Of a stretch of 37,013 bases of DNA, positions 19,649 through 36,374 are shown piece after piece. Numbering within the stretch: position 1 is the stretch's first letter; the number at the start of each line of letters is the position of its first letter. A program made the translations under genes and the position numbers. The stretch covers positions 1 to 37,013 of the forward strand of contig JACROS010000043.1 of the NCBI GenBank assembly GCA_016214325.1. Reading direction: 5' to 3'. The DNA comes from Candidatus Omnitrophota bacterium (GTDB lineage Bacteria; Omnitrophota; Gorgyraeia; Gygaellales; Profunditerraquicolaceae). The notes below the pieces were generated by a model. That model ran no database searches. It was not told the DNA's origin and saw only the letters and a program-made list of their open reading frames with translations.

Positions 19649-20944
19649 ATGAAAAGTGCTGTAAGATTTTTATTAGGATTAATTATCAGTCTAGTTCTGT
19701 CAGCGCAAGGGATTTGTGCTGATGATCTGCTTAGCTGGCAGGATTGTTTAAAAAAAAAAAAAAAAAACAATCCTGATTTAATCTCTTCTGTTGAGAATAT
19801 CAGCCAGCAGAAATCAGCAAAGACAATTACAGCAAGTTCTCTCTATCCTCAAATTAATGCTGATCTTAATGTCTCTACATCTAAAACAGGAAAATCTTCT
19901 TCTACGTCTACAGGAAGCTCGTCAGCTACTTCAGGTGATTCATATTCTTATGGCGCTACAGGTTCACAGTTAATTTTTGATGGCTTTAAAACTCTTAATG
20001 AAGTTAATACAGCTAAACAAAATATTGAGGTTGCAAAACAAAGTTACCGTTTTGCTTCTTCAGAGATAAGGCTAAGTTTGCGTAATGCCTTTGTTAAATT
20101 GCTAGAGGCACAGGAATTAGTCAGGGTTGTTGAGGAAATTATAAAAATACGGCGGGATAATTTAGAATTAATTACTATGCGTTATTATTCAGGGCTTGAA
20201 CATAAAGGTGCTTTGTTGACTGCTCAGGCTAATCTTAGCCAGGCTAATTTTGAACTTTCTCAGGCAAAGAGAAATGTTGAGTTTTATCAGCGTCAGTTAA
20301 CTAAAGAAATGGGGCGTAAGGAATTTGTTCCTATGATTGTTAAGGGAGAGTTTGTTGTGCGTGATACTGCTAAGCCTAAACCGGATTTTGCATTGATAGT
20401 TAAAAATAATCCTTCAGTATTGCAGGTGTCTGCGCAAAAGGCAGCTGCATTTTATAGCCTCAGGTCGGCTTACGGTAATTTCAGCCCCCAGCTTATTGGT
20501 TCTGCTTCTGTGGATAAGGCTAATTCTCAATGGCCGCCAAATACCAATCAGTGGAGCGCCGGCCTTGGTTTAAGTATGCCTATATTTGAAGGAGGCTTAA
20601 GGTTGGCTCAAGTATCTCAGGCAAAATCAGTCTTGAAGCAATCAGGAGAAAATGAAAGAAGCGCTAAGGATACAGCAATAGTAGCTCTTGAGCAGTCTTG
20701 GGTTTTGTTACAGGATGGCCTGGAATTTGTTAATGTGCAAAAACAAATATTGAATGCAACAGAAGAGCGCTCAAAGATTGCAGAGGCGCAGTATTCAATT
20801 GGCTTTATGTCTTTTGATAATTGGATCATTATTGAAGATGATTTGGTGAAGGCAAAAAAGAATTATTTATTGGCTCAGGCAGATGCGCTTTTGGCTGAGG
20901 CAAATTGGATTCAGGCGAAAGGAGAAACTCTTGAATATGAATAA
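19649..20944 (+). CDS. TolC family outer membrane efflux protein
   Basis: Signal peptide, LSWQDCLKKKKKNNPDLISS, two OEP repeats with long helices. Confidence 0.9.
   Translation: MKSAVRFLLGLIISLVLSAQGICADDLLSWQDCLKKKKKNNPDLISSVENISQQKSAKTITASSLYPQINADLNVSTSKTGKSSSTSTGSSSATSGDSYSYGATGSQLIFDGFKTLNEVNTAKQNIEVAKQSYRFASSEIRLSLRNAFVKLLEAQELVRVVEEIIKIRRDNLELITMRYYSGLEHKGALLTAQANLSQANFELSQAKRNVEFYQRQLTKEMGRKEFVPMIVKGEFVVRDTAKPKPDFALIVKNNPSVLQVSAQKAAAFYSLRSAYGNFSPQLIGSASVDKANSQWPPNTNQWSAGLGLSMPIFEGGLRLAQVSQAKSVLKQSGENERSAKDTAIVALEQSWVLLQDGLEFVNVQKQILNATEERSKIAEAQYSIGFMSFDNWIIIEDDLVKAKKNYLLAQADALLAEANWIQAKGETLEYE
19739..19775. repeat. A18 homopolymer inside an 11-bp inverted repeat within the tolC-like CDS
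   Basis: CAGGATTGTTT (19739-19749), A18 (19750-19767), AAACAATCCTG (19765-19775). Confidence 0.85.
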
Positions 20945-21914
20945 AAAGATTAAATTGATTTTTATTCTTTTGGTTGTATTTGCAGCGGGTTGGTTTTTGT
21001 TTTCAATGTTGCATCGGACAAAAAAACCCGATGAGGTTTATAAAGAGATTAAGCCTTTTTCTGGTAGTGTACAGAGTACATTTTCTACTGTTGGTTCGGT
21101 ATTGCCGAAAAACAGGCTGGAGATTAAGCCTCCGGTAGGAGGAAGAGTTGAAGAAATTTTGGTTAAAGAAGGGCAAAAGGTAAAAACAGGAGAAACCTTA
21201 GCTTGGATGAGTTCTACTGAGCGGGCAGCTCTGTTGGATGCAGCGCGCGGACAGGGAGAAAAATCTTTAGAATACTGGAAAGATGTTTATAAGGGGATTC
21301 CTTTAATTTCTCCGATAGACGGCGAAGTGATCGTTTCAAAGACACAGCCGGGCCAGACAGTAGTTACTAGTGATGCAGTGATTGTTCTTTCGGATAAGTT
21401 GATTGTTAGAGCACAGGTGGATGAAACCGATATCGGTAAAGTAAAACTTGGCCAACAGGTGGTTATGTCACTTGATGCCTATCCGCTTGAAAAAATAAAG
21501 GCTGTTGTGGACCATATTTATTATGAATCAAAAACAGTAAATAATGTTACCACTTATGAAGTTGATTTACTCCCGGAAGAGATTCCGGAATTCTTTCGCT
21601 CTGGGATGAATGCTACTATTTATTTTGTTAATAAGTCAGTTGAGCAAGCGCTGCTTATTCCTGGTGAGGCGATGGTAAAGGAAAATGGCAAAGAATATGT
21701 GCTTATTAAAGAATCTAATGGGAATGCGCCAGTCAAGCGTCTAATAGAGACGGGCATTTCCGACGAAAAGAATATTCAGGTTATCTCTGGAATAAATCCT
21801 GATGATATTGTTTTGGTTAAGGAGAAGAAATATTCGCTTCCTAAGGGTAGTTCTGCCTCTAGCCCATTTACTCCGTTTGGTGCAAAGAAAAAGGAAGATA
21901 AGCCGAAAAACTAA
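20937..21914 (+). CDS. Efflux RND/ABC periplasmic adaptor (HlyD/MacA-like)
   Basis: N-terminal TM, lipoyl half-motifs GRVEEILVKEGQKVKTGETL and PLISPIDGEVIVSKTQPGQTV; ATG overlaps the tolC 3' end. Confidence 0.9.
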   Translation: MNKKIKLIFILLVVFAAGWFLFSMLHRTKKPDEVYKEIKPFSGSVQSTFSTVGSVLPKNRLEIKPPVGGRVEEILVKEGQKVKTGETLAWMSSTERAALLDAARGQGEKSLEYWKDVYKGIPLISPIDGEVIVSKTQPGQTVVTSDAVIVLSDKLIVRAQVDETDIGKVKLGQQVVMSLDAYPLEKIKAVVDHIYYESKTVNNVTTYEVDLLPEEIPEFFRSGMNATIYFVNKSVEQALLIPGEAMVKENGKEYVLIKESNGNAPVKRLIETGISDEKNIQVISGINPDDIVLVKEKKYSLPKGSSASSPFTPFGAKKKEDKPKN

Positions 21915-21915
21915 T

Positions 21916-23874
21916 ATGATTGAACTAAAAGAAGTATTTAAGACCTATAAAATGGGCGACACCGAAGTGCGCGCCCTTAATAATGTGTCATTAAAGATTT
22001 CTGCAGGTGAATTTGTAGCGATTATGGGGCCGTCGGGATCCGGTAAATCAACATTAATGCATGTGCTTGGTTTATTGGATCAGCCGGATGCAGGCAATTA
22101 TGTTTTAGACAAAAGAGAGATTAATGGATTAAGCGAAGAGAAGCTGGCTATTATTAGAAATCAGTTGATTGGTTTTGTTTTTCAGCAGTTTCATTTGTTG
22201 GCTCGGTTGACGGCGCTTGATAATGCAGAATTGCCTTTAATCTACGCCGGAAAAAGGCATCTTAGAGAAAAAGCGCGTCAGAAGATTGAGCTTGTTGGGT
22301 TAAAAGATCGTATATCGCACCGTCCTAATGAGCTTTCTGGTGGGCAGCAGCAGCGTGTTGCTATTGCCAGAGCATTGGTTAATGATCCTCCGATTATCCT
22401 TGCGGATGAACCGACGGGAAATCTTGATTCTAAAAGCAAAGAAGAAATTTTAAATATTCTAAAGCAGCTCAATCAAGAAGGTAAAACTTTAATTATTGTT
22501 ACGCATGAAAGAGAAATTGCCGAGCATGCAAAAAGAATTATTTTTATGCGCGATGGAGAAATTGTTTCTGATGAAAAAAATAATGTTAATCCGTTGATAG
22601 TAAGCCCGGATATTCCCGATGGCGTTGAGTTTGAGAATAAATCTACGGCATCTACAGGAGCAAAGTTTATTGATTATTTGCGCGAGGCATGTTTTGCAAT
22701 ATGGTCGCATAAATTAAGGTCATTTTTATCAATCTTGGGTATATTAATTGGAGTAGGCGCTGTAATTGCTATGCTTGCTTTGGGCCAGGGAGCAAAAGCG
22801 GCAATTGAGAAGCAGTTAACAGGGCTTGGTTCAAATCTTTTAGTAGTTAGAGCCGGATCACCTAAATTGCATGGAGTTGCACTTGAATCAGGCACAGTTA
22901 CCCGTTTTACTTTTCAGGATGTGGATGCCTTGCGTAATTTATCAGATGAAATTGTCCGGGTGAGCCCGTCAGTATCCGGGCGGGGGCAGATTGTTTATTT
23001 CAATAAAAACTGGAATACTCAGGTTGAAGGCGTTGATGTTGATTATGAATATATGCGTTCATTTACCCCGGAAGTGGGCAGGTTTTTTAGTGCATCAGAA
23101 GTGAGGATGCGTGAAAAAGTAGCATTGCTAGGCACAACTGTGGCAAGGGAGCTTTTTGGAGAAGCTAACCCAATAGGAGAAGTAATTAAAATTAATTTAA
23201 TTAATTTTCAGGTAATTGGGGTATTACCTGAAAAGGGGGCCACTACATTTCGCGATCAAGATGATGTTATTCTTATCCCGGTGACAACCGCGATGTTTAG
23301 AGTATTTGGCAAACAGTATGTTGATGCTATTTTTATTGAATGCCGCGATCCCCAGGCAATGGATGCTCTTTCAGATTCAATCTCAGCAATGATTATAAAA
23401 TTACACCGGTTAAGAAAAGATAATGAGGATTCTTTTGAAATTCGTAACATGGCGGATATTAAGAAAACTCTTGAGGCTACAACAAAAACCATGTCTTTAT
23501 TGCTGGGTGCAATTGCAGCAATTTCTCTTTTTGTAGGCGGAATTGGTATTATGAATATTATGCTTGTTTCTGTTACAGAGCGCACGAGAGAAATTGGCCT
23601 GCGTAAAGCAATTGGGGCAAATAATCGGGATATTTTGGTGCAATTTCTAATTGAAGCTGTGTTAATGTCAGTTTTTGGAGGCGTGGGAGGAATTTTATTA
23701 GGAGCCGGCGTATCGGCATTGGTTACTACTATTGCCGGATGGAGCATGATTGTTTCATTATCTTCTGTGATTCTTGCGACGGTATTTTCACTTATTGTGG
23801 GTGTTGTGTTTGGGCTCTGGCCTGCAAAGCAGGCATCCAGGCTTGATCCTATTGAGGCATTGAGATATGAATAA
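21916..23874 (+). CDS. macB: MacB-like ABC transporter, ATP-binding/permease fusion
   Basis: [41 protein letters not shown]; MacB periplasmic domain and FtsX-like permease [15 protein letters not shown]. Confidence 0.93.
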
Positions 23875-24731: not shown

Positions 24732-24737
24732 ATTTTG

Positions 24738-25814
24738 ATGAAAAAAAATGTATTTAATTTTGATTCAAGTGATCTTAGTGATAACAAAAAAGATATTTGT
24801 GCTATTTTAGGCTCAGGAAATATCAAGCTAACTTCTTTTTTAAACTGGCCCGAAATGTTAAGAGTTGCCAGGCACTCGAGTGTTTCCCCTAGTTTATATT
24901 TGGCTGCTAAGCATAATGAGAAAAAGTTTTGTGTCCCTGACGAAATATATAAGGAATTAAAACTTGATTATACTATTTGTAGTTTTTTAAATCAGATTAA
25001 GTTAGAAGATTTTGAAAGAGTCTCGTTTGAATTTAAAAAAACAAATATCAGCTTTATTTTGCTCAAAGGAATTCATCTCTTGAATACGGCATTTAGTTTT
25101 GATTCCGGGGCGCGAGCAATAGGTGATATTGATATTTTGGTTAAAAAAGATGATTTAGTGAGTGCTTCTAGAATTATAACTGTTCTTGGTTACAAGTATT
25201 TTGAATCATTAACAAATGCTCGTCCTACACGGATGTTTATTAAAAAAAGTGAAACTGGGATTGAGTTAGCTGTTCATTTACATACACACATAGTTAATCT
25301 TTCGGAAAAATTTATGGATAAGGATTTGACGAGTATTAATCTTGATGATATTTTTAGCTCGGCCAATGTTGCAGCGCCATTATTTGGTAAAGATGCTGGT
25401 TTATTGATGAAAAATGAACACATGCTAATAAGCCTGTGCGAGCATGGGTTTAGGCATGGTTTTGCCCGCTTGGGCTTACTTTATGATATTCATAAATTTA
25501 TTGGCTACGCAGGGAATAACTTGGATTGGCAGGAAGTTAAGAGAGTATCTGTTAGCTGGTCAATTAAGGTTCCTGTTTGTCAAGGGCTTTATCTTTCAAG
25601 ACTATTCTTTGGTACAAATATAGAAGCTGATTTTTTGAGTCAGCTTTGTCCGAAGGGGTTTTCTTTGCTGGAGCAGTATCTTCTAGGAAGAGTTGCTAAA
25701 CAGGATTATCTTAAAGAGTATGAATATCCATTTTTATATTTTTTACAGAAGAAACCTTTGTTTTCCAAGACACGTTTTTTAAAAACTTGCTTTAGCAATA
25801 AGTTTAGAATATAA
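24738..25814 (+). CDS. Nucleotidyltransferase family protein (NTP_transf_5-like)
   Basis: FILLKGIHLLNTAFSFDSGARAIGDIDILVKKDDL signature; ATG at 24738. Confidence 0.82.
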   Translation: MKKNVFNFDSSDLSDNKKDICAILGSGNIKLTSFLNWPEMLRVARHSSVSPSLYLAAKHNEKKFCVPDEIYKELKLDYTICSFLNQIKLEDFERVSFEFKKTNISFILLKGIHLLNTAFSFDSGARAIGDIDILVKKDDLVSASRIITVLGYKYFESLTNARPTRMFIKKSETGIELAVHLHTHIVNLSEKFMDKDLTSINLDDIFSSANVAAPLFGKDAGLLMKNEHMLISLCEHGFRHGFARLGLLYDIHKFIGYAGNNLDWQEVKRVSVSWSIKVPVCQGLYLSRLFFGTNIEADFLSQLCPKGFSLLEQYLLGRVAKQDYLKEYEYPFLYFLQKKPLFSKTRFLKTCFSNKFRI

Positions 25815-25822: not shown

Positions 25823-26893
25823 ATGAATAGCTCAACTGAACTTTTCGATGCTATAGTTGCAAAAATTGAGCATAGCCGTATACCGCTTAATGCTCATATT
25901 GACCTTACCTATCGTTGTAATCTGAATTGTGTTCATTGCTATTGTCAAAATCTCTCGCCTAGTTTCTCAAGGGGCCAACCAGAAATGAGTGATAGTGAAA
26001 TATTAAAACTTATTGATGAGCTTGCTGAAATTGGTTCGCTTTTTCTTACCTTGTCCGGAGGAGAAGTATTGCTTCATCCATCTTTTTTTAAAATTGCCGA
26101 ATATGCAAGGAAGCGCAATTTTTCTGTTACAGTGCTTACTAACGGAATGTTGGTTGATAAAAATATGGCACAGAGATTAGCGGGGCTGTCTTTAAAAAGT
26201 GTTGAGTTGAGTATTTATGGTGCCAGTGCTACAGTGCATGATTCTATTACTGGTAAAATAGGATCTTTTGAAAAACTTAAACAGGCAGTTGGTTTCTTAA
26301 AAGATGCTGGTTTGTGGGTGATGTTGAAGTCGGTAATTATGAAGCAAAATATGCATGAGGCCCACCAGATAGAAGATGCAGCCTTAGCTATGGGTGCAGA
26401 TAAGTATATTTCTACTTTGGAAGTTACTGTTAAAAATGATGGTTCAAATGATCCCAAAAGATTTCAGTTATCTGAACAAGATTTACTGAAACTTCTCATT
26501 GATGATCCAGATCCGCTACCTGGGGCAGATCAGGCATTAGGGCAAAAAGCAGAGGATAGGCCGATATGCGGTTGCGGCATATTAGGGACATATATTTCTC
26601 CTTATGGAGAAGTTTATCCTTGTATCCAGCTTTTGGTTTCAATGGGAAATATCCGCGAGAAAAACTTTGCCCAAATCTGGCGCTCATCATCAGAAATTCG
26701 GGATAAACTCGATTCTATTCGCACATACGCGGATATGCCTTATTGCAGGGATTGTAAATTTGTGGGTGTATGTAAGAAATGTTTAGGGACAGTGTATTTG
26801 GAGACTGGCGATTTGTGCGCTTGCCATCAGACGCAGCGTGCCATACTGGAAAAAGGCTATCAAGTATATTGTAAACAAGGAGGGGAGAGATGA
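25823..26893 (+). CDS. Radical SAM/SPASM peptide-modifying enzyme (PqqE/anSME-like)
   Basis: DLTYRCNLNCVHCYC (CxxxCxxC), LTLSGGEVLLHPSF, SPASM cysteines CGCGIL..YPCIQ..YCRDCKFVGVCKKC. Confidence 0.93.
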   Translation: MNSSTELFDAIVAKIEHSRIPLNAHIDLTYRCNLNCVHCYCQNLSPSFSRGQPEMSDSEILKLIDELAEIGSLFLTLSGGEVLLHPSFFKIAEYARKRNFSVTVLTNGMLVDKNMAQRLAGLSLKSVELSIYGASATVHDSITGKIGSFEKLKQAVGFLKDAGLWVMLKSVIMKQNMHEAHQIEDAALAMGADKYISTLEVTVKNDGSNDPKRFQLSEQDLLKLLIDDPDPLPGADQALGQKAEDRPICGCGILGTYISPYGEVYPCIQLLVSMGNIREKNFAQIWRSSSEIRDKLDSIRTYADMPYCRDCKFVGVCKKCLGTVYLETGDLCACHQTQRAILEKGYQVYCKQGGER

Positions 26894-27051
26894 GTGATAA
26901 GAAAAAGAAATATGTGAAACCGCAGTTAAAAAAGCTGAATATGCTGGAGGTAAGCGCAGCTGTTTGTTGCCGGAGGAATGGAGCTGTTCCTGATTGTAGT
27001 ATGGTTAATAAAACTGGCGGTAAAAGTAGTAAATATAATACTCAGTCGTAA
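26890..27051 (+). CDS. Candidate RiPP precursor peptide, 53 aa (absent from supplied ORF track)
   Basis: MSDKKKKYVKPQLKKLNMLEVSAAVCCRRNGAVPDCSMVNKTGGKSSKYNTQS; ATGA overlap with the radical SAM stop; YxxPxL leader motif; 3 Cys; GGGGAG SD upstream. Confidence 0.82.
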   Translation: MSDKKKKYVKPQLKKLNMLEVSAAVCCRRNGAVPDCSMVNKTGGKSSKYNTQS

Positions 27052-27059
27052 TTTCTTCA

Positions 27060-27470
27060 GTGCAAGAATTTAAGATTACAATACAGGGTAAAAGCATGAT
27101 GCCTTTCTTGCTTCCCAGGTCTTTTGCAATAGTAAGGTTTTGTGGAGTTGATCAGCTTTGTTTGGGAGATATTGCAGTTTTTAAAGAAAAAGGCTTGTTT
27201 ATTTGTCATCGGGTAATAAAAATATTACAGCGTAATAGTCAGGTTATCTTGAGGACAAAACCAGACATTTCTTTCTTAGCAGATCCATTGATAAATAATA
27301 GCTTAATTGTAGGCAAAATAATCTCTGTGCAATATGGAAAGGTCTATTTTAAAATTGATTCTTTTCCAATAAGGATTTTTGGTTATTTACTTGGCTATAG
27401 CATTCCTTTTTTAGCCCGGGTTTATTTTAAAACAAAGAAGATTCTTTATGCTTTCAACAATCGGAATTAA
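27060..27470 (+). CDS. S24/S26 signal-peptidase-like protease (Ser-His type)
   Basis: GTG start; IQGKSMMPFLLPRS (Ser box), LGDIAVFKEKGLFICHRVIKI. Confidence 0.8.
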   Translation: MQEFKITIQGKSMMPFLLPRSFAIVRFCGVDQLCLGDIAVFKEKGLFICHRVIKILQRNSQVILRTKPDISFLADPLINNSLIVGKIISVQYGKVYFKIDSFPIRIFGYLLGYSIPFLARVYFKTKKILYAFNNRN

Positions 27471-28248
27471 TTTCGCAGGAATTCAGTATAAAATAGAAGG
27501 TATTGATCTTAAAGAAGAAACCGGTCAATTTTTAGATGGCTTTATGGGTTTTTCTGACTCAGATGTTGTTTATACAGTTAAGATCAATAGGAATGCTTCG
27601 TGGCAGATTAAAGATTCAGAGTTTCAAACCTTGCCAGAATGGAATAAAGATACGCTTAAAATTGGGTTATCTTTTTGTGATGTAGAAATTGATTTTGTGC
27701 GTCGAAATGTGTTTGTTTTAACAGGAAAATATATCGGCTTGTTTGGTTTGCTTCGGTTTTTGTCTGCAATGCATCTTGTTCGTAATAATGGTTTTCTATT
27801 GCATGCTAGTTCTTTAACTACTGTTAAAGGTGTTTATGTATTTAGCGGAGTTTCAGAAAGTGGCAAAACTACTATTGCTCGGATGGCAGAGGAAAATATG
27901 CGTGTTTTAACCGATGAGACAACGGCAATCTTTAAAAATCAATCTGTATTTGAAGCGCATGCTACTCCTTTTGCTGGAGAATTAGGTAATCTTGGATTTA
28001 ATTCTGGTTCAAAATTAAAGGCTTTATTTTTTATTAGAAAAGATAATTCTTTTTGGCATAGACGCTTAGAAAAGCAAGAAGTTGTGAAGGAGCTTTTTAG
28101 AAATGCAATTTTTACTGCGCTAGATCAGAAAATAATTGAAACTGTTTTTAATACTTTTATTTCATTTGCCGAAAACGTGTCTTGTTACGAACTTGGATTT
28201 AACCGTTCAAAAGATTTATGGAGGTATATTGATGGAATTGCTGGATAA
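27448..28248 (+). CDS. HprK-like serine kinase (HprK-related kinase)
   Basis: LLHASSLTTVKGVYVFSGVSESGKTTIARMA Walker A; VLTDETTAI; overlaps upstream and downstream genes. Confidence 0.82.
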   Translation: MLSTIGINFAGIQYKIEGIDLKEETGQFLDGFMGFSDSDVVYTVKINRNASWQIKDSEFQTLPEWNKDTLKIGLSFCDVEIDFVRRNVFVLTGKYIGLFGLLRFLSAMHLVRNNGFLLHASSLTTVKGVYVFSGVSESGKTTIARMAEENMRVLTDETTAIFKNQSVFEAHATPFAGELGNLGFNSGSKLKALFFIRKDNSFWHRRLEKQEVVKELFRNAIFTALDQKIIETVFNTFISFAENVSCYELGFNRSKDLWRYIDGIAG

Positions 28249-28510
28249 GAAATTCTTACGCAACAAGAATGTCGCTTGGCGAATTATTGATGGTGAAGCA
28301 TTGTTGGTGCATCCTTCTACAAACATTATTTCTCCGCTTGATGAAATATGTACGCGTATTTGGGAACTGATAGATGGCAAGCTTACTGGTAGAGATATTG
28401 CTGGTATTGTTGAAAAAGAGTTTACAGAGAACCTTTCTGTTATTGAAACTGATTTGAATGCATTCCTTGATGAACTCCTTCAAAATAATCTCATTATTTT
28501 ATGCGATTAA
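28232..28510 (+). CDS. PqqD-like RiPP recognition element protein
   Basis: MELLDKKFLRNKNVAWRIIDGEALLVHPSTNIISPLDEICTRIWELIDGKLTGRDIAGIVEKEF; ATG at 28232 overlaps the kinase 3' end. Confidence 0.88.
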   Translation: MELLDKKFLRNKNVAWRIIDGEALLVHPSTNIISPLDEICTRIWELIDGKLTGRDIAGIVEKEFTENLSVIETDLNAFLDELLQNNLIILCD

Positions 28511-29319
28511 TTTCTTGTATTTCATTTTCTATTAGTAGGGGTCTTTATTTTATCTCAGAAAGATTATATAGGCTTATAGCTATGTTTGATGCTTTTAATG
28601 TAGCTGTTTTGACGCCAGAAGAGATGGCGGATATAGGGCGTCGAGCATATAATCGACTCTCTGAACAGTTTGGTTCAGAAGAAACGATTAGAACAGGCCT
28701 GGTGGATTGGGAAAAGGAAGCAGTTGCTCGTTTTTGCCAAAAGAAAAGTTCGTTTCTTGTGCTTGGTTGTGGTGGAGGCAGAGAAGTAGTTGCTTTAGCA
28801 AAAATGGGATTTTCTGTTGTGGGGATAGATTCATCTTTGGGGATGCTGGAGATTGGCCGTGTTAATGCTCAGCGTGAAAAAGTAGCTGTAGATTTTAGAG
28901 AAGGAGATTTTTTGTCGCCTGATACAGGTAAAGACAAATTTTCTTACTGTCTTTTGTCTTGTGTTATGTATAGTTCTGTTCCCTCTCGCCAGATGCGCGT
29001 AGCCATGCTTAGGCAGATTAGGAATGTTCTTGAGGATAAAGGAATTTTGATTATTCATTTTTTGCTTGATTCTAAGAAAGTTAATAGCCGTTGGCACACA
29101 GCAAAGAAGAAAATAGCTTCTTTTTTTCGCGGGAATGTTACTTATTCTCCCGGAGATACATTTTCTACGTCTTTGCATTTCATGAGGTATTTTCCAAGTG
29201 ATGAAGAAGTTGTTTTAGAAGCTAAGGAAGCCGGTTTTCTTGTGCAGGCTAAGGGTGTTTTTCCGGAATCAGAATATATGGTGCTTTCACATGAAAGAAG
29301 TTTTCTAATAGGAAGCTAA
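28501..29319 (+). CDS. Class I SAM-dependent methyltransferase
   Basis: FLVLGCGGGREVVALAKMGFSVVGIDSS; overlaps the pqqD-like gene by 10 nt. Confidence 0.8.
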   Translation: MRLISCISFSISRGLYFISERLYRLIAMFDAFNVAVLTPEEMADIGRRAYNRLSEQFGSEETIRTGLVDWEKEAVARFCQKKSSFLVLGCGGGREVVALAKMGFSVVGIDSSLGMLEIGRVNAQREKVAVDFREGDFLSPDTGKDKFSYCLLSCVMYSSVPSRQMRVAMLRQIRNVLEDKGILIIHFLLDSKKVNSRWHTAKKKIASFFRGNVTYSPGDTFSTSLHFMRYFPSDEEVVLEAKEAGFLVQAKGVFPESEYMVLSHERSFLIGS

Positions 29320-30108
29320 TGTTCCTTGTTTTTTTGCATAATTAATTGCCCAACCGAAGAATTTTATGCCTGTCGGAAGCAGTACTGTAGAAAATATCAC
29401 AAGAATAGTTAATTCAGTTTTAAGCTGATAGATGGTGTAGCCGCGGTATACTGCAAGCTCCATTGCCTTTACTGCATAGGTCACTGGAAAAAGCATGGAG
29501 ATTATTTGTAACCATCCTGGAAGCACAGAGATCGGAAAGAAAATTCCTCCGACGATTCCTTCAAAAGCTCCAATCACCCAAGCTAAAGGGTTTCCTCTTT
29601 TAAAAATCACTACAAAACTTGCTGAAATTATTCCAAGGCCTGTGAATGAAAGAATGCTTAATATAAGCACTAATGCTACTGAGGCAAGATTGGCTGAGCC
29701 TAAATTAACCCTAAAAACAAATAAGCCAAGGATGGCATAAATAGCAAAGTCAACACTGGCTACGATAAAGTTCCAGATGCCTAGTCCTGCTAATATAATC
29801 TTGGTTTTGGTTGGAGTTAAAATGATTGCTTCTAATGTTCCTTCCATTTGTTCGTCGGCAATTTTCTGAGGAAATGAATTTATTCCGACAGAAATATAGC
29901 CAAAAAGGCCGGTACTTACTAATACATAAGAAAAATAATCTACTCCAAATAATTCTAGGTGAGTTGTGATTTTCTGTCCGAAGAGTTTGTTAATAAAAAA
30001 ATAGCTTAAGAGTCCTAAAAAGATACTGGCAATATTTAAGGCTAAGGGAAATTGATATGATGATTCAACTAAAAATGTTTTTTTTAAGAAGGCGATAATT
30101 TTTTTCAT
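29305..30108 (-). CDS. ABC-2 type transporter permease
   Basis: Six-TM ABC-2 topology; EQMEGTLEAIILTPTKTKIIL signature. Confidence 0.85.
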   Translation of the reverse strand: MKKIIAFLKKTFLVESSYQFPLALNIASIFLGLLSYFFINKLFGQKITTHLELFGVDYFSYVLVSTGLFGYISVGINSFPQKIADEQMEGTLEAIILTPTKTKIILAGLGIWNFIVASVDFAIYAILGLFVFRVNLGSANLASVALVLILSILSFTGLGIISASFVVIFKRGNPLAWVIGAFEGIVGGIFFPISVLPGWLQIISMLFPVTYAVKAMELAVYRGYTIYQLKTELTILVIFSTVLLPTGIKFFGWAINYAKKQGTLASY

Positions 30109-30110
30109 AT

Positions 30111-30893
30111 TTATTGGTTTTCTAACGCTATTTTTTCATATGTTTCTTTTAAAGAATTAAATTCAGCTTTCAACGTAGATTTAGTTAGTGTCTCGCGCAA
30201 TCGGCCATTTTTTAATATAATTGCTTTGTCGCAGAAATTAGATATTTCTTCTAAGTGGTGCGTGGTAAAAATTATTGTTTTGTTTCTTTTGGTGGCTAAT
30301 TCGTCAAGGACAAATTGCATAAACCGTTGTGCTGAAAGGTAGTCGAGGCTCTTCGTTGGTTCATCTAACAGGAGTAGCTCTGGATCGTGTGCTAGGGCTC
30401 TAATTAATGATATGGCCTGTTTCATTCCAGCTGAATAACTGTCAAATCTTTTGTTTAGGTCTAAAAATCTAAATAATTCTGAAAGCTCATTTGCTTTTTT
30501 GAAAGCTGTTTTGGAATCAATGTTGTGCAGTGCCATAAAGAATTCTAAATTCTGTTTTCCCGTTAGTCTCCAGTAAAAACCGCGTTCTTGAAGAGAAGAA
30601 AATCCTATGAGTGAACGAATATTAAGATTGTCCTTTTCAATGTATTTACCTGCAATGCTTATGGTGCCTGAGTCGGGAAATAAAAGAGTGGCAATAATTT
30701 TTAATAACGTGGTTTTTCCGGCGCCATTGGGGCCAAGAATGCCGAGAATTTTTCCTTTCTCTAAAGAAAAAGAAAGGTCTGTAATGGCATGAGTAGATAA
30801 TTTATTTTGAAATTTAAGGCTTACTATTTGAGAAAAGGATAGGGATGGGGTGAAATTCTTAGAGATATGATTTAATTCTACAAAATTTTCCAT
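30111..30893 (-). CDS. ABC transporter ATP-binding protein
   Basis: GILGPNGAGKTTLLKII, SAGMKQAISLIRAL, LLLDEPTKSLD, TTHHLEE. Confidence 0.93.
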   Translation of the reverse strand: MENFVELNHISKNFTPSLSFSQIVSLKFQNKLSTHAITDLSFSLEKGKILGILGPNGAGKTTLLKIIATLLFPDSGTISIAGKYIEKDNLNIRSLIGFSSLQERGFYWRLTGKQNLEFFMALHNIDSKTAFKKANELSELFRFLDLNKRFDSYSAGMKQAISLIRALAHDPELLLLDEPTKSLDYLSAQRFMQFVLDELATKRNKTIIFTTHHLEEISNFCDKAIILKNGRLRETLTKSTLKAEFNSLKETYEKIALENQ

Positions 30894-31040: not shown

Positions 31041-31670
31041 TTGAATATATTGGCGATAGGTGCGCACCCGGATGACATAGAGTTTGGCTGTGGGGCTACG
31101 CTTTTGCAATTCTCCCGTCGCGGGCATAAAGTATTTTTTTTCGTGGCTACTGAGGGAGAGGTTGGCGCAAAAGAAGGCTTAAGAAGAAAAGAAGAGATGA
31201 ATGCGATGCGTTTTCTGGGCGCTAAAAAAGTATTGTGGGGTGGATGTGTTGACACTAATGTTCCCACTAGTAAAGAGTTGATTGATGAAATTGAGGCAGT
31301 GATTAAAGAAGTGAAGCCTGATATTGTGTTTTTTAATTTTTCTGATGATACTCATCAGGACCATCGCGCTGTGGCAAATTGTGCGCTTTCTGCAACTAGA
31401 TATGTGAAAAAAGCTCTCTTTTATGAAGTTCCCACCACTAGGAATTTTGAGCCGGATGTTTTTATGGATGCAAGCAGTGTAATGCAGAAAAAGGTTTCTT
31501 TGCTTAAGTTGCATAAATCACAAATCAAAAGGACTCGTGTGCCAAAGCTGACCATCTTAGAGAGCGCCTTGGCCTGCGCGATGTTCAGGGGCTATCAAGC
31601 TAGAGTAAAATTTGCCGAGGGGTTTAAGGCAGTGCGTTTTATGCTTGATTTTGAATCTGACAAATTATGA
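31041..31670 (+). CDS. PIG-L family deacetylase
   Basis: TTG start with GGAGG SD; ILAIGAHPDDIEFGCGATL; SDDTHQDHRAV. Confidence 0.92.
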   Translation: MNILAIGAHPDDIEFGCGATLLQFSRRGHKVFFFVATEGEVGAKEGLRRKEEMNAMRFLGAKKVLWGGCVDTNVPTSKELIDEIEAVIKEVKPDIVFFNFSDDTHQDHRAVANCALSATRYVKKALFYEVPTTRNFEPDVFMDASSVMQKKVSLLKLHKSQIKRTRVPKLTILESALACAMFRGYQARVKFAEGFKAVRFMLDFESDKL

Positions 31671-32692
31671 GGCTGCGCTTAATTCTTCTGTCCTCGTTTA
31701 TAATTAGCTTTGTTTTAACTCCCTTTCTTATAAAGTTATCCCGCAGATTAAAAGTTCTTGATTATCCAGCAGAAAGAAAAATTCATAATGTTCCCATGCC
31801 TCGGTTGGGAGGAGTAGCAGTTTATTTGGCCACCGTGGTATCCTTATCTTTTGGCATTTTCTCTTCAGCTAAATTAACCGCAATATTTCTAGGGGGGACA
31901 TTGATTTTTGTTCTGGGGCTAGTGGATGACATTAAGCATATTTCTGCTTCTTCAAGATTACTTGGACAAATTATCGCTTCAGCAATTTTAATAAGTTCCG
32001 GTATTTATATCGATGTTTTTCCTGCTGCCTTTAACTTTTTTAATTATTTTATTACTGTAGTTTGGCTAGTGGGTATTACTAATGCTGTAAATTACTTAGA
32101 TGGGGTAGATGGCTTGGCTACTTTGCTGGCGATTTCAATATTGGCATGTTTTACTTATATAGGTTTTATATCTAATCAGTTCTGGTTATTAAATTTAATT
32201 GTTGCTTTGTCTGCAGCATTGCTAGGTTTCTTGAGATACAATTTCCCTAAAGCAAGAATTTTTCTTGGAGATTGCGGCAGTAATTTTATTGGGTTTATTT
32301 TAGGGGCTGTTGGAATTATGGGCACATGGGCAGAGGATAGTGTTGTAAAAATATTTGTGCCGGTTTTTATACTGGGAGTTCCGATTTTTGATATGTGTTT
32401 TACTACTGTAATGCGCATTAGAGAAGATAAGATACATGATGTTATTGAATGGCTCGAATATGCAGGAAAGGATCATTTTCACCACCGCTTGATGAATTTA
32501 GGGTTAAATAGAGTCGGAGTTGTGTGTTTAATTTGTGCTTCAAGTATAATCTTGGGTATTTCTGGTATAGTTTTGTATAATTCTGAAAGAACCGATGCTT
32601 ATTTTATGTTGGTACAGTCGTTTTTTATCTTCGTTATTATTTCTATCCTCATGATTATGGGCAGTAGGGTTTCCTGTAAAAATCAGAGTTAA
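31667..32692 (+). CDS. WecA/MraY-family undecaprenyl-phosphate sugar-1-phosphate transferase (GT4)
   Basis: ERKIHNVPMPRLGGVAVYL, NYLDGVDGLATL, ARIFLGDCGSNFIGFILG, GKDHFHHRLMNLGL; ATGA overlap with the upstream gene. Confidence 0.93.
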   Translation: MRLRLILLSSFIISFVLTPFLIKLSRRLKVLDYPAERKIHNVPMPRLGGVAVYLATVVSLSFGIFSSAKLTAIFLGGTLIFVLGLVDDIKHISASSRLLGQIIASAILISSGIYIDVFPAAFNFFNYFITVVWLVGITNAVNYLDGVDGLATLLAISILACFTYIGFISNQFWLLNLIVALSAALLGFLRYNFPKARIFLGDCGSNFIGFILGAVGIMGTWAEDSVVKIFVPVFILGVPIFDMCFTTVMRIREDKIHDVIEWLEYAGKDHFHHRLMNLGLNRVGVVCLICASSIILGISGIVLYNSERTDAYFMLVQSFFIFVIISILMIMGSRVSCKNQS

Positions 32693-32712
32693 AAAGAAAG
32701 TGGTTTTTGTTT

Positions 32713-33393
32713 ATGATTGTAAGTGTTCATCAGCCCCAGTATATTCCTTGGCTTGGCTATTTTGATAAAATAAAAAAAAGCGATTGTTTTGTTTTTCTTG
32801 ATGATGTGCAATATAAGAAAAGAGAGTATGAGAACCGCAATAAAATCAAGGCTTCTGCTGGGGCGCATTGGCTGACTGTCCCGGTAATTACTAAAGGCGC
32901 TTATTTTCAGAAAATAAGCGATGTTTTAATTGATAATGCTCAAAGATGGCAGGAGAAACATTACAAAGCTTTTGAGTTTAATTATGGCAAGGCCGCATAC
33001 TTTAAGAATTATTTACCATTTTTAGAAGAAATTTATCTTCAGAAGAAATGGGTAAACTTAGTTGATTTAAACATTTTTATTATAAAATTTGTATTGAAAG
33101 AATTAGGAATTGGTACTAAGATATACTTAGAATCTCAGGTTCAGGCTGATGGCCAGGCTACTGACAGGATTGTAAATATTTGCCGTAAATTAACTTGTGA
33201 TTCGTATCTATCCGGCATAGGAGGAACAGCTTATCTAAAGGAAGAAAAGTTTTCTTCTGCCGGAATAAAATTGATTTATCAGGATTTTAAGCATCCGGAA
33301 TATCCTCAGCAATTCGGGGAATTTGAAAGTAATTTGTCTGTGATGGATTTGCTTTTAAATTGCGGCCCGCAAGCAAGTAAATATTTTGCCTAA
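32713..33393 (+). CDS. WbqC family protein
   Basis: MIVSVHQPQYIPWLGYFDKIKKSDCFVFLDDVQYKKREYENRNKIK. Confidence 0.93.
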   Translation: MIVSVHQPQYIPWLGYFDKIKKSDCFVFLDDVQYKKREYENRNKIKASAGAHWLTVPVITKGAYFQKISDVLIDNAQRWQEKHYKAFEFNYGKAAYFKNYLPFLEEIYLQKKWVNLVDLNIFIIKFVLKELGIGTKIYLESQVQADGQATDRIVNICRKLTCDSYLSGIGGTAYLKEEKFSSAGIKLIYQDFKHPEYPQQFGEFESNLSVMDLLLNCGPQASKYFA

Positions 33394-33398
33394 AAATT

Positions 33399-34211
33399 AT
33401 GTATGAAAGTTACTGGAATTTAAAAGATAAACCTTTCGAAAACACTCCTGATCCTCGTTTTTTCTTTTTAAGTCGGCAGCATAATGAAATCCTCTCTCGC
33501 TTTATGTATGTAATTGAGCAGCGTAAACAAATGGCCATGTTTACAGGAGAATATGGAGCCGGCAAGACTCTTGTGAACATGATGATTCTTTCAAAATATA
33601 AAGAAAAGTTAGATTATAAAATTATTCTGATTATAAATCCTTGTCTTAGTTTGATTGATTTCTTACGGGAGATACATTATCAACTAAAGAATGATCCTGC
33701 AATAGGGATGTCAAAATTTGAAATTTTAAATTCTCTCAGGCAGGGGTTATTAGAGAACCCTCATTTGAGAAAGATTATTATTATTGATGAATCGCAGATG
33801 ATAGAAGATTTAAACATCTTTGAAGAGCTTAGACTGCTTTCTAATATTACTTTTGAGCATCAGTTTATGTCAAGCATTATTCTCGTCGGACAGCCGCAGT
33901 TAAAAGACAAGGCTTATCAGTTTCCACAATTACGTCAAAGATTGGCCCTTGTGCATCATCTTAACCATCTTTCTGAGGAAGAGACAAGAGAGTATGTCGA
34001 TTACAGGCTGAGAGTGGCGGGTGCAAAATTTACAATTTTTGATGATGAAACTCTTAGTGTTATTTTTGAAGTAACTAAAGGAGTGCCCCGTCTTGTTAAC
34101 ACTTTATGCGATATAAGCCTTGCGATTGGAAAGGCTCAGAGTAGAACGACTATTAATAAAGAAATTATTGATCAGGTTGCTTCTGAAATAATAAGAGAAA
34201 TCAATGCTTGA
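33399..34211 (+). CDS. ExeA/GspA-like AAA ATPase (XrtA-associated ATPase type)
   Basis: YWNLKDKPFENTPDPRFFFLSRQHNEIL, TGEYGAGKTLV, IIIDESQM. Confidence 0.88.
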   Translation: MYESYWNLKDKPFENTPDPRFFFLSRQHNEILSRFMYVIEQRKQMAMFTGEYGAGKTLVNMMILSKYKEKLDYKIILIINPCLSLIDFLREIHYQLKNDPAIGMSKFEILNSLRQGLLENPHLRKIIIIDESQMIEDLNIFEELRLLSNITFEHQFMSSIILVGQPQLKDKAYQFPQLRQRLALVHHLNHLSEEETREYVDYRLRVAGAKFTIFDDETLSVIFEVTKGVPRLVNTLCDISLAIGKAQSRTTINKEIIDQVASEIIREINA

Positions 34212-35331
34212 TTTTTCAAATCTTTATAATTCCCAAAACAATGAAAAAGATAATTTGAAGGATGCGAAAACAGATAAGCCTTTAGATAATCTTCCGCAAG
34301 AGCCTGTTAAATCTCCAGGAGAATTTTCATCTTCAGGAAATCAAGCCAGCCAAGGTATTTCATTTTCTGAAATAAATTTCAGCCAGGAAGACACCACTTT
34401 TAACGAGAACGTTTTTCAAAACTCAAGGCAGTTTTATCTTGAATGCCTTGCAATGGCAGAGGATGCGATAAATAATCTTCAGAAGGCAAAGGGAGTAGAT
34501 TTTCAAGCTATTCACAAAAAGATTCTTGAACTAACTGAGAATATTTCTTTTGGTGATAAGTATTTCTTGGTTTTAATGAATGAGGTTAAAAATAACAATT
34601 TTCTTGCTGTGGAATCAGTAAATGTAGCAATTCTTGCCCTTGAGATAGGAATCCAGCTTGGATTTAATAAATCAAAGCTGGAGAAACTGGCTCTTGCTGG
34701 TTTTTTTCATGATATGGGTTTAGGGAAAATGATAAATCTGGTTAATTCTACGAGGTCGCTTACTTTTAATGAAGTAAATCAGATAAAAGGGCATCCTCGC
34801 GTAATTATGGATTTACTCAACAATGAAGCAGGAATTTCTGAGGAAGTAATTAACGGAATTTTACATCATCATGAAAAACTGGATGGCTCAGGTTATCCGA
34901 ACGGATTAAAAAAAGGGCAAATTAGCGAATTTGGCCAGATAATTTCGGTAGCTGATATTTTTGAATCATTGACTCATCCTCGTCCATACCGCAATCAGGT
35001 AAATTTCTTGGAGGCATTTAAGACTATTTTTCAGTCCAAGCAGGAAAGAATAAATCCTAAGTATGTTGATGCTTTGATCAGAGGTGTTGGATTTTATCCG
35101 CTTGGAAGCTGGGTGAAGTTGGATGATGGGCATATCGGCAAGGTTGTATTTGTTGATAAGAAATTCCCCTTGAGGCCGGTTATTCTGATTTTATTTTATT
35201 CAACAGGAAAAACTCTTGATGTTCCTAAGAGGATAGATTTAAGAAGACACGCTCAGTCTAATATTGTGACAATTATTTCTTCTGATGAGGTTAACTCTCT
35301 TGCCGTTATAAAGAAAGAATTAGCAAATTAA
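34204..35331 (+). CDS. HD-GYP domain protein (putative c-di-GMP phosphodiesterase)
   Basis: AGFFHDMGLGKM, LHHHEKLDGSGYPNGLKKGQIS, IISVADIFESLTHPRPYR. Confidence 0.9.
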   Translation: MLDFSNLYNSQNNEKDNLKDAKTDKPLDNLPQEPVKSPGEFSSSGNQASQGISFSEINFSQEDTTFNENVFQNSRQFYLECLAMAEDAINNLQKAKGVDFQAIHKKILELTENISFGDKYFLVLMNEVKNNNFLAVESVNVAILALEIGIQLGFNKSKLEKLALAGFFHDMGLGKMINLVNSTRSLTFNEVNQIKGHPRVIMDLLNNEAGISEEVINGILHHHEKLDGSGYPNGLKKGQISEFGQIISVADIFESLTHPRPYRNQVNFLEAFKTIFQSKQERINPKYVDALIRGVGFYPLGSWVKLDDGHIGKVVFVDKKFPLRPVILILFYSTGKTLDVPKRIDLRRHAQSNIVTIISSDEVNSLAVIKKELAN

Positions 35332-35361
35332 TTGTAGTTTTATGTTTTCTGTAAATTATTG

Positions 35362-35389
35362 TTGAAATTAAAGTTATACCTGTTATAAT
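35362..35389 (+). promoter_or_regulatory. Putative promoter TTGAAA-N16-TATAAT, predicted leaderless
   Basis: -35 at 35362-35367, -10 at 35384-35389, ATG at 35400. Confidence 0.55.
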
Positions 35390-35399
35390 TTCTTTAATT

Positions 35400-36374
35400 A
35401 TGAAGAAAATCTTATTATTTTTCTTAGTAATCTTCGCTTCATGGTCTCTTTGTTTTGGTGTTGAAGAGAGCGCAGAGAGAATTTTTAGCTTTTCAATTGA
35501 AACTCCTCAGAAAGTTCAGGCAAACATTCCTTTTAGGGCCACCATAAAAGTAGTTGATAATCAGGGTAACATACTTAAAGATTATAGTTCGTGGGGAAAA
35601 GGCGTTGAGATTACTTCAGATACTGCAGGAAGCGTTACGCCGTCTTATATTGGCGCATCTTCTTTTATAGATGGTATTGCTAATGTTGAAATGACTTATA
35701 ATAAGGAAGGCGATATTACGCTTTCTTTTAATGAGGCACGTAAAGTTAAAAAAATAACTGAAAGTGACGCCGGGTCAGGAGCTAAGCAAATTCCCTTGTC
35801 GTATAAAATTAATTCCTATGATGAAATTGAAATTTCTGTTTGGCAAGCAGAAGGCTTGACGCAGACAGTTACTGTTTCGCCAGATGGAAATATTTTCTTT
35901 CCTCTTTTAGGAGAATTGCGCATTGAAGGCCTTACTGTAAAGCAACTTGCTGATATTGTAACAGAAAAGATCGCCGAGTATGTAAAGAGTCCTCAGGTGT
36001 CTGTTGTTTTAAAAAGGCTGGGAGGAAGAAGGGTAATTGTTTTGGGAGAAGTAAAATACCCTGGTGTTTACAATCTTCAGGAAATGAATATTATTGAGGC
36101 AGTTACTGCGGCAGGAGGTTTTACCGAGGATGCGGTAACAACCAAGGTTGTGATTATGCGCGGAGGCATGTATAAAAAACCTGATGTAAAATTTATTAAT
36201 GTTATTAAATTAATAAGGACGGGTAAATTTACTAAAGAGGCATATTTATTGCCAAATGATGTTGTATTTGTTTCCCGGAACTTTATTTCGGATTACCGTT
36301 ATTTTATAACAAATGTTATACCTAATGCAAGCCCGGATAAGGCGATTGAATATAGAACTCATAAGATGTGGTAA
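35400..36374 (+). CDS. Polysaccharide export protein (Wza-like, SLBB) with extra N-terminal Ig-like domain
   Basis: Signal peptide; YKINSYDEIEISVWQAEGLTQTVTVSPDGNIFFPLLGELRIEGLTVKQL; SLBB RRVIVLGEVKYPGVYNL. Confidence 0.88.
   Translation: MKKILLFFLVIFASWSLCFGVEESAERIFSFSIETPQKVQANIPFRATIKVVDNQGNILKDYSSWGKGVEITSDTAGSVTPSYIGASSFIDGIANVEMTYNKEGDITLSFNEARKVKKITESDAGSGAKQIPLSYKINSYDEIEISVWQAEGLTQTVTVSPDGNIFFPLLGELRIEGLTVKQLADIVTEKIAEYVKSPQVSVVLKRLGGRRVIVLGEVKYPGVYNLQEMNIIEAVTAAGGFTEDAVTTKVVIMRGGMYKKPDVKFINVIKLIRTGKFTKEAYLLPNDVVFVSRNFISDYRYFITNVIPNASPDKAIEYRTHKMW

Follow-up and report, generated by a model that had tools for sequence, protein, structure and literature searches.

A precursor peptide gene of Omnitrophota and its probable place in a radical SAM branch of the RRE/HprK/PF14907 pathways

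The window analysed here (the whole stretch of 37,013 nucleotides from a Candidatus Omnitrophota genome) carries at 26890-27051, on the forward strand, an open reading frame which almost certainly encodes a genuine precursor peptide of 53 amino acids. We further consider it likely, speaking of the class of pathway, that the peptide is the precursor of a RiPP from a radical SAM branch of the RRE/HprK/PF14907 ('phospho-tail') pathways. An encoded precursor with a conserved leader and a more variable core, modifying enzymes in adjacent genes and an RRE protein within the cluster (PqqD family, PF05402, E=5.8e-11) are all present, as expected of a RiPP. The chances are about even that the locus represents a widespread and undescribed RiPP superfamily (Omnitrophota, Acidobacteriota, Nitrospirota, Chloroflexota, Verrucomicrobiota, Thermodesulfobacteriota and others), in which the core would be Cys-crosslinked by a radical SAM enzyme, a PF14907 enzyme would decorate a C-terminal phosphoserine (a nucleotidyl- or sugar-phosphate tail being one example), and a repurposed archaeal-type signal peptidase would remove the leader. 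Such a compact cluster brings together the radical SAM modification of peptide cores and the decoration of phospho-tails, each known so far as a logic of its own, and each family member gains a predicted precursor, cleavage site and phosphorylation site. It also suggests that the use of a signal peptidase as leader peptidase, reported from Bacillota in 2026, extends well beyond that phylum, and it provides dozens of natural precursor-enzyme pairs from which the unsettled function of PF14907 might be learned.

The genes are ordered PF14907 nucleotidyltransferase, radical SAM/SPASM enzyme, precursor, S26-type peptidase, HprK-like kinase, PqqD protein and methyltransferase, and several of the gene ends overlap:

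24735-25814, forward strand: PF14907 nucleotidyltransferase, LppN/PsmN-like (Pfam NTP_transf_5, E=8.6e-36)
25823-26893, forward strand: radical SAM/SPASM maturase (PF04055, 8.8e-25; PF13186, 7.4e-11)
26877-26883, forward strand: Shine-Dalgarno sequence AAGGAGG of the precursor gene (read from the sequence)
26890-27051, forward strand: 53-aa precursor peptide gene (sequence, homologues, constraint)
26911-26928, forward strand: predicted RRE-binding motif YVKPQL, Y8-L13 (Y and P invariant in 11 aligned CC-subgroup peptides)
26941-26952, forward strand: predicted leader end MLEV, residues 18-21, with the cut after V21 (family pattern and LppA analogy)
26953-27048, forward strand: predicted core SAAVCCRRNGAVPDCSMVNKTGGKSSKYNTQS, with invariant C26, C27 and C36 (alignment)
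27046-27048, forward strand: C-terminal Ser53, predicted phosphorylation site (Ser ending of the family and kinase precedents)
27060-27470, forward strand: archaeal/SipW-type signal peptidase-like protein, predicted leader peptidase, LppS-like (TIGR02228, E=1.2e-9, below cut-off)
27448-28248, forward strand: HprK/PEPCK-fold kinase, LppK/PadeK-like (AlphaFold model, pLDDT 85)
28232-28510, forward strand: PqqD-family RRE protein (PF05402, 5.8e-11)
28501-29319, forward strand: SAM-dependent methyltransferase (PF13649, 3.9e-13)
29305-30108, reverse strand: ABC-2 permease of the likely convergent exporter (homologue recurring across loci)
30111-30893, reverse strand: ABC ATPase of the likely convergent exporter (domain search and recurrence across loci)

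The precursor gene and its homologues

The open reading frame (MSDKKKKYVKPQLKKLNMLEVSAAVCCRRNGAVPDCSMVNKTGGKSSKYNTQS) had been proposed as an overlooked gene in a sequence-only reading of the window, and both its exact sequence and its coordinates are borne out. None of the 41 members of the precursor family was matched by a Pfam or NCBIfam model at E <= 0.01, and for want of such a match its assignment to a known curated precursor family was rejected. A second copy was not found elsewhere in the organism's own genome assembly (1.48 Mb, 84% complete). The sequence AAGGAGG, graded a strong Shine-Dalgarno sequence, lies 6 bases 5' of the precursor ATG, which shares the tetranucleotide ATGA (26890-26893) with the TGA of the radical SAM gene, exactly as first read; because of this overlap of start and stop and the preceding AAGGAGG, translational coupling of the precursor to the radical SAM gene is plausible.

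With the precursor alone as query, a search of 286 Omnitrophota genomes gave 6 clear matches (E = 6e-8 to 1e-3), all of them small open reading frames adjoining radical SAM genes homologous to that of the window, and the homologues span other genera and families of Omnitrophota, including one outside the class. The sequence-only reading had staked its case on a homologous small gene at the same locus in relatives and on coding constraint, and both were found. Ten syntenic homologues could be aligned with the window peptide (together the CC subgroup), across which Y8, P11, E20, C26, C27, C36 and G44 never vary, while K5, K45 and the C-terminal Ser are almost as strictly kept; Ser22 is poorly kept, being Gly in most homologues. 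For one same-genus pair, from a sister subgroup of precursors, dN was 0.14 versus a dS of 0.41, and in the remaining pairs the synonymous sites are at or near saturation with residues kept, a pattern which indicates that the precursor family is under purifying selection. Furthermore, a strand control over 109 kinase-bearing loci counted 70 precursor-like frames on the operon strand versus 1 on the opposite strand. The frames counted begin with ATG, encode 30-90 aa, contain [YW]xxPx[hydrophobic] together with a basic leader and two or more Cys, and lie no more than 250 nt from a cluster gene. A chance open reading frame was rejected on this 70:1 bias together with the coding constraint.

The comparison also displays the conserved leader and more variable core that had been anticipated for a RiPP precursor. 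It supports the earlier reading of a precursor with an RRE-type leader and a three-Cys core beside a SPASM radical SAM enzyme; the CC pair and the third Cys, then called plausible substrates of that enzyme, are invariant. The YxxPxL pattern, which had been likened to lasso leaders, stands as an RRE-type motif with invariant Tyr and Pro, but it does not by itself assign the peptide to the lasso class, as motifs of this type serve LPP and PQQ leaders as well (PMC13381572). The HprK-like kinase, the PF14907 protein, the archaeal-type signal peptidase, the conserved exporter and the C-terminal Ser had been missing from that reading, and the kinase, nucleotidyltransferase and peptidase, taken with the terminal Ser, hold greater interest than the peptide and its leader.

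Cluster enzymes and predicted maturation

The Cys residues of the radical SAM CxxxCxxC motif and of the SPASM domain are invariant in alignment, as are D131 and D133 of the PF14907 protein, whose AlphaFold model (pLDDT 84) matches nucleotidyltransferases of the MenAT/ANT(2'') type (E 2e-4 to 2e-2). Foldseek matched the kinase model to PEPCK (E~1e-9) and HPr kinase (E~2e-4); H119, K140 and D156 of this protein are invariant and are common to the kinase of a Paenibacillus lasso cluster, and where the published His-Lys-Asp-Asp kinase motif has its second Asp, this protein appears to have Glu157. The S26-type peptidase is matched by SipW (3e-5) and its family profile matches SEC11 (E=4e-11), with S12 and H50 invariant and D75 nearly so.

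In a profile search near radical SAM genes, the window and 56 further loci yielded 55 kinase, 63 PqqD, 44 PF14907 and 36 S26 open reading frames, the radical SAM gene itself being present at every compared locus by construction of the search. The S26 peptidase is fused to the kinase in locus L068 and to the PF14907 protein in L064 and L065, and the methyltransferase is fused to the PF14907 protein in L068 and L069 (fusion genes at L068 6362-7621 and 9116-10843, L064 2326-3669, L065 4010-5314 and L069 9080-10600). These fusions tie the parts of the pathway together. In 29 loci the ABC-2 permease homologue and the radical SAM gene lie on opposite strands, against 1 locus in which they share a strand, and the permease/ATPase pair is likely the exporter of the product. 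Genes of the TolC, HlyD/MacA and MacB types are found at 19649-23874, directly upstream of the cluster; as exporter candidates the TolC/MacA/MacB-type genes were set aside for their lack of recurrence with the clusters (a MacA-MacB pair occurs in L103 only). A promoter and terminator scan of the locus performed no better than on shuffled sequence, and for this reason it was not used to place an operon boundary.

Precedents for the tailoring steps come from two systems. Linear polyphosphorylated peptides (LPP) of Bacillota carry S, K, B and N genes, the lpp cluster of Paenibacillus alginolyticus being the reference system (Popov et al. 2026, PMC13381572); there the SipW-like LppS, acting jointly with the RRE, cleaves off the leader, the cut in LppA falling after F-3 E-2 T-1, LppK polyphosphorylates Ser3 of the core, and LppN was inactive in heterologous expression (PMC13381572). 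In phosphorylated lasso peptides, PadeK, ThcoK and PsmK phosphorylate the C-terminal Ser and PsmN adds a hexose to the phosphate (PMC9266682).

Starting from the conserved precursor, the co-located and in places fused genes, the catalytic residues, and the Tyr, Pro, Cys and Ser of the peptide, it is reasonable to postulate the following sequence of events. The PqqD protein would bind YVKPQL and present the peptide, a step that analogy with known RRE proteins makes very probable. The radical SAM/SPASM enzyme would act on the CC-x8-C core, most likely installing thioether or other radical crosslinks; that it acts on the core Cys we hold with moderate confidence, the radical chemistry being speculative, and conservation of the Cys could also reflect disulfides or metal binding. 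The HprK-like kinase would phosphorylate Ser53, which the lasso kinases render fairly probable, and a further group may be added to the Ser53 phosphate by the PF14907 nucleotidyltransferase, possibly aided by the methyltransferase. Action of the nucleotidyltransferase on that phosphate is an evenly balanced proposition, and the identity of the group added by the two enzymes, like the biological role of the product, is speculative. Removal of the leader would fall to the signal-peptidase-like serine protease, for which the LppS analogy argues with good confidence, most likely after MLEV and near V21/S22 (MLEV/SAAV), and by comparison with LppA we lean somewhat toward a cut within two residues of V21. 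Last, the convergent ABC-2 transporter would export the product. As a counterpoint, the published work on LPP kinases and peptidases concerns precursors without a radical SAM enzyme.

Variation across the precursor family

Most of the regions around the radical SAM hits of 386 genomes contained a precursor-like open reading frame. Single-sequence scans of genome and viral contigs with the radical SAM enzyme as query returned no match, whereas an alignment-based scan of GTDB genomes did and so extended the set. In all, radical SAM clusters from about ten phyla supplied 65 distinct precursors; the YxxP motif in this set belongs to the selection rule. Beyond Omnitrophota, the phyla comprise Acidobacteriota, Nitrospirota, Rokuibacteriota, Chloroflexota, Verrucomicrobiota, Thermodesulfobacteriota, Elusimicrobiota, Aminicenantes, Lentisphaerota and Myxococcota, and there is one uncultured Clostridia bacterium. 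In the tree of radical SAM enzymes, those belonging to the CC subgroup constitute one supported clade of 11, all from Omnitrophota (98/86), whose branching departs from the listed host families, a hint of horizontal transfer.

The cores are otherwise variable, and yet 48 of the 65 precursors end in Ser. The S26 gene goes with this ending (40/48 versus 8/17, Fisher p=0.008, uncorrected for relatedness). An acidic residue occurs at Y+12 or Y+14 in 45/65; it is followed by V, A or T in 21 of 23 cases at Y+12 and by A, T or V in 18 of 22 at Y+14, the latter spacing being the one seen for FET, the cut motif of LPP. The 17 precursors without a terminal Ser nearly all belong to loci with a kinase gene, and the kinase may for this reason sometimes use another residue. 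Among them is an 'FFF' group of five (L070, L076, L077, L078 and L085; leader ...KKL..FFF.C), which has kept the kinase gene, has no terminal Ser and is without an S26 gene found at its loci; judged from these sequences, the target of the kinase in this group must differ.

SPASM enzymes, usually accompanied by an RRE, are characteristic of sactipeptides, ranthipeptides, PqqE and mycofactocin systems, and the thioether classes among these have Cys-bearing cores. The present cluster has all three of these elements. Its product might be a thioether peptide of sactipeptide or ranthipeptide type whose neighbouring kinase and nucleotidyltransferase act elsewhere, for example in regulation or on the neighbouring polysaccharide. 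The three invariant Cys beside a SPASM enzyme, the kinase retained in groups that have no terminal Ser and the polysaccharide genes at 31041-36374 fit such an arrangement, but the kinase-S26 and S26-nucleotidyltransferase fusions bind the enzymes to the peptide and the terminal Ser is strongly enriched, and we regard it as quite improbable. The radical SAM enzyme falls far below every curated NCBIfam maturase cut-off (148 bits versus 500, 144 versus 265). The GeoRSP and SynChlorMet cassettes of NCBIfam likewise pair PqqD with SPASM enzymes, and here too the model matches are far below cut-off.

Two further sets of loci were noted in passing. Clusters of S26, kinase, PqqD and radical SAM genes occur at L120, L123, L125 and L128-L145 (mostly Acidobacteriota), in most of which the YxxP rule recognised no precursor; their precursors perhaps use another motif or position. 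L107 (G196:C1:222000-241000) holds six radical SAM, two PqqD and one HprK-like kinase gene within 19 kb, and its sole motif-bearing small open reading frame is without Cys.

Relation to described peptide families

Without its radical SAM and methyltransferase genes, the gene set corresponds by sequence to that of the Bacillota LPP (PMC13381572) and to much of that of the phosphorylated lasso peptides. With LPP the cluster has in common a YxxPx[hydrophobic] leader, a discrete RRE, an HprK-like kinase, an NTP transferase, ABC export and an archaeal/SipW-type signal peptidase, in which Ser, His and Asp follow in the same order at near-identical spacing (Ser12/His50/Asp75, 38 and 25 residues; LppS Ser29/His68/Asp93, 39 and 25). 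One may thus ask whether the peptide is itself an LPP, with the S26 protein cleaving off its leader, polyphosphorylation of a Ser close to the N-terminus of the core and the radical SAM enzyme as an accessory. The shared N, S, K and B genes, the leader motif with an FET-like cut motif, Ser22 directly after the predicted cut and the polysaccharide genes next door, as for LPP (PMC13381572), speak for this. The radical SAM enzyme, however, is part of the operon here and the term 'radical SAM' is absent from the LPP main text (PMC13381572); the Omnitrophota cluster also adds a methyltransferase and a Cys-bearing core, and its exporter is a convergent ABC-2 pair rather than MsbA-like. The LPP leader consensus YxxPxVLxHQxIxFETxxS is not matched by YVKPQLKKLNMLEVSAAV, which keeps YxxP and the [F/L/I]E[V/A/T] site but differs in the middle and in spacing. 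Ser22 is mostly Gly in homologues, whereas the terminal Ser is conserved. LPP hosts are Bacillota, as opposed to the Omnitrophota and many other phyla here. Membership in LPP is unlikely on these grounds. If the cut falls after V21, core position 3, the site of the phosphorylated Ser in LPP, would be Ala, and Ser is not kept there in homologues. At 31041-36374 the genes beside the cluster encode a PIG-L deacetylase, a family 4 glycosyltransferase, WbqC, an AAA ATPase, an HD-domain protein and a polysaccharide export protein, a neighbourhood reminiscent of the capsule loci that surround the LPP clusters of Bacilli.

The YxxPxL leader with PqqD, together with a kinase and PF14907 pair typical of paeninodin-like clusters (PMC9266682), would also suit a lasso precursor, and clusters of the paeninodin/pseudomycoidin type share with ours the HprK-like kinase, the nucleotidyltransferase, the discrete RRE and a precursor ending in Ser. 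They differ from it in that the window has an S26-type peptidase in place of B2, and a radical SAM enzyme, with which related clusters likewise pair these genes. A search of the organism's own genome found no lasso B2 (PF13471), which at 84% completeness is no proof of absence, and Asn-synthase-like genes (PF00733), hence a lasso cyclase, were not found near the cluster, the genome's matches lying on other contigs only. The lasso family was rejected on this basis, and we consider such a peptide highly improbable. The proposed pathway would operate like that of LPP with phospho-lasso tailoring added to it. Being neither lasso (no B2 found, no cyclase nearby) nor LPP (leader consensus and exporter), the radical SAM branch proposed here is filed as a variant of the RRE-dependent RiPPs. 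A full-text literature search, in which few subscription journals were covered, found no paper combining an HprK/HPr kinase with a radical SAM enzyme in a RiPP, and HprK was unmentioned in the radical SAM RiPP literature so found; this silence is weak evidence of novelty.

The family profiles do extend into lasso neighbourhoods. In the lasso cluster of Paenibacillus cellulosilyticus (L202) they match the kinase (E=5e-19), the nucleotidyltransferase (1e-45) and PqqD (5e-17), and its precursor, MSKKNWQAPVVEALEI...TVTIS, ends in Ser; this precursor (L202 11207-11404) has no listed gene, the stored gene table being incomplete for the record. A plasmid search with a relative's kinase gave no match, and one with the nucleotidyltransferase gave two lasso-type neighbourhoods. 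Beside the haloarchaeal lasso cluster of Halopiger, the profiles match the nucleotidyltransferase, PqqD and a kinase-like frame; this HprK-like frame (L203 7136-8041, Halopiger xanaduensis plasmid), annotated as a hypothetical protein, lies between the PF14907 gene and the lasso cluster.
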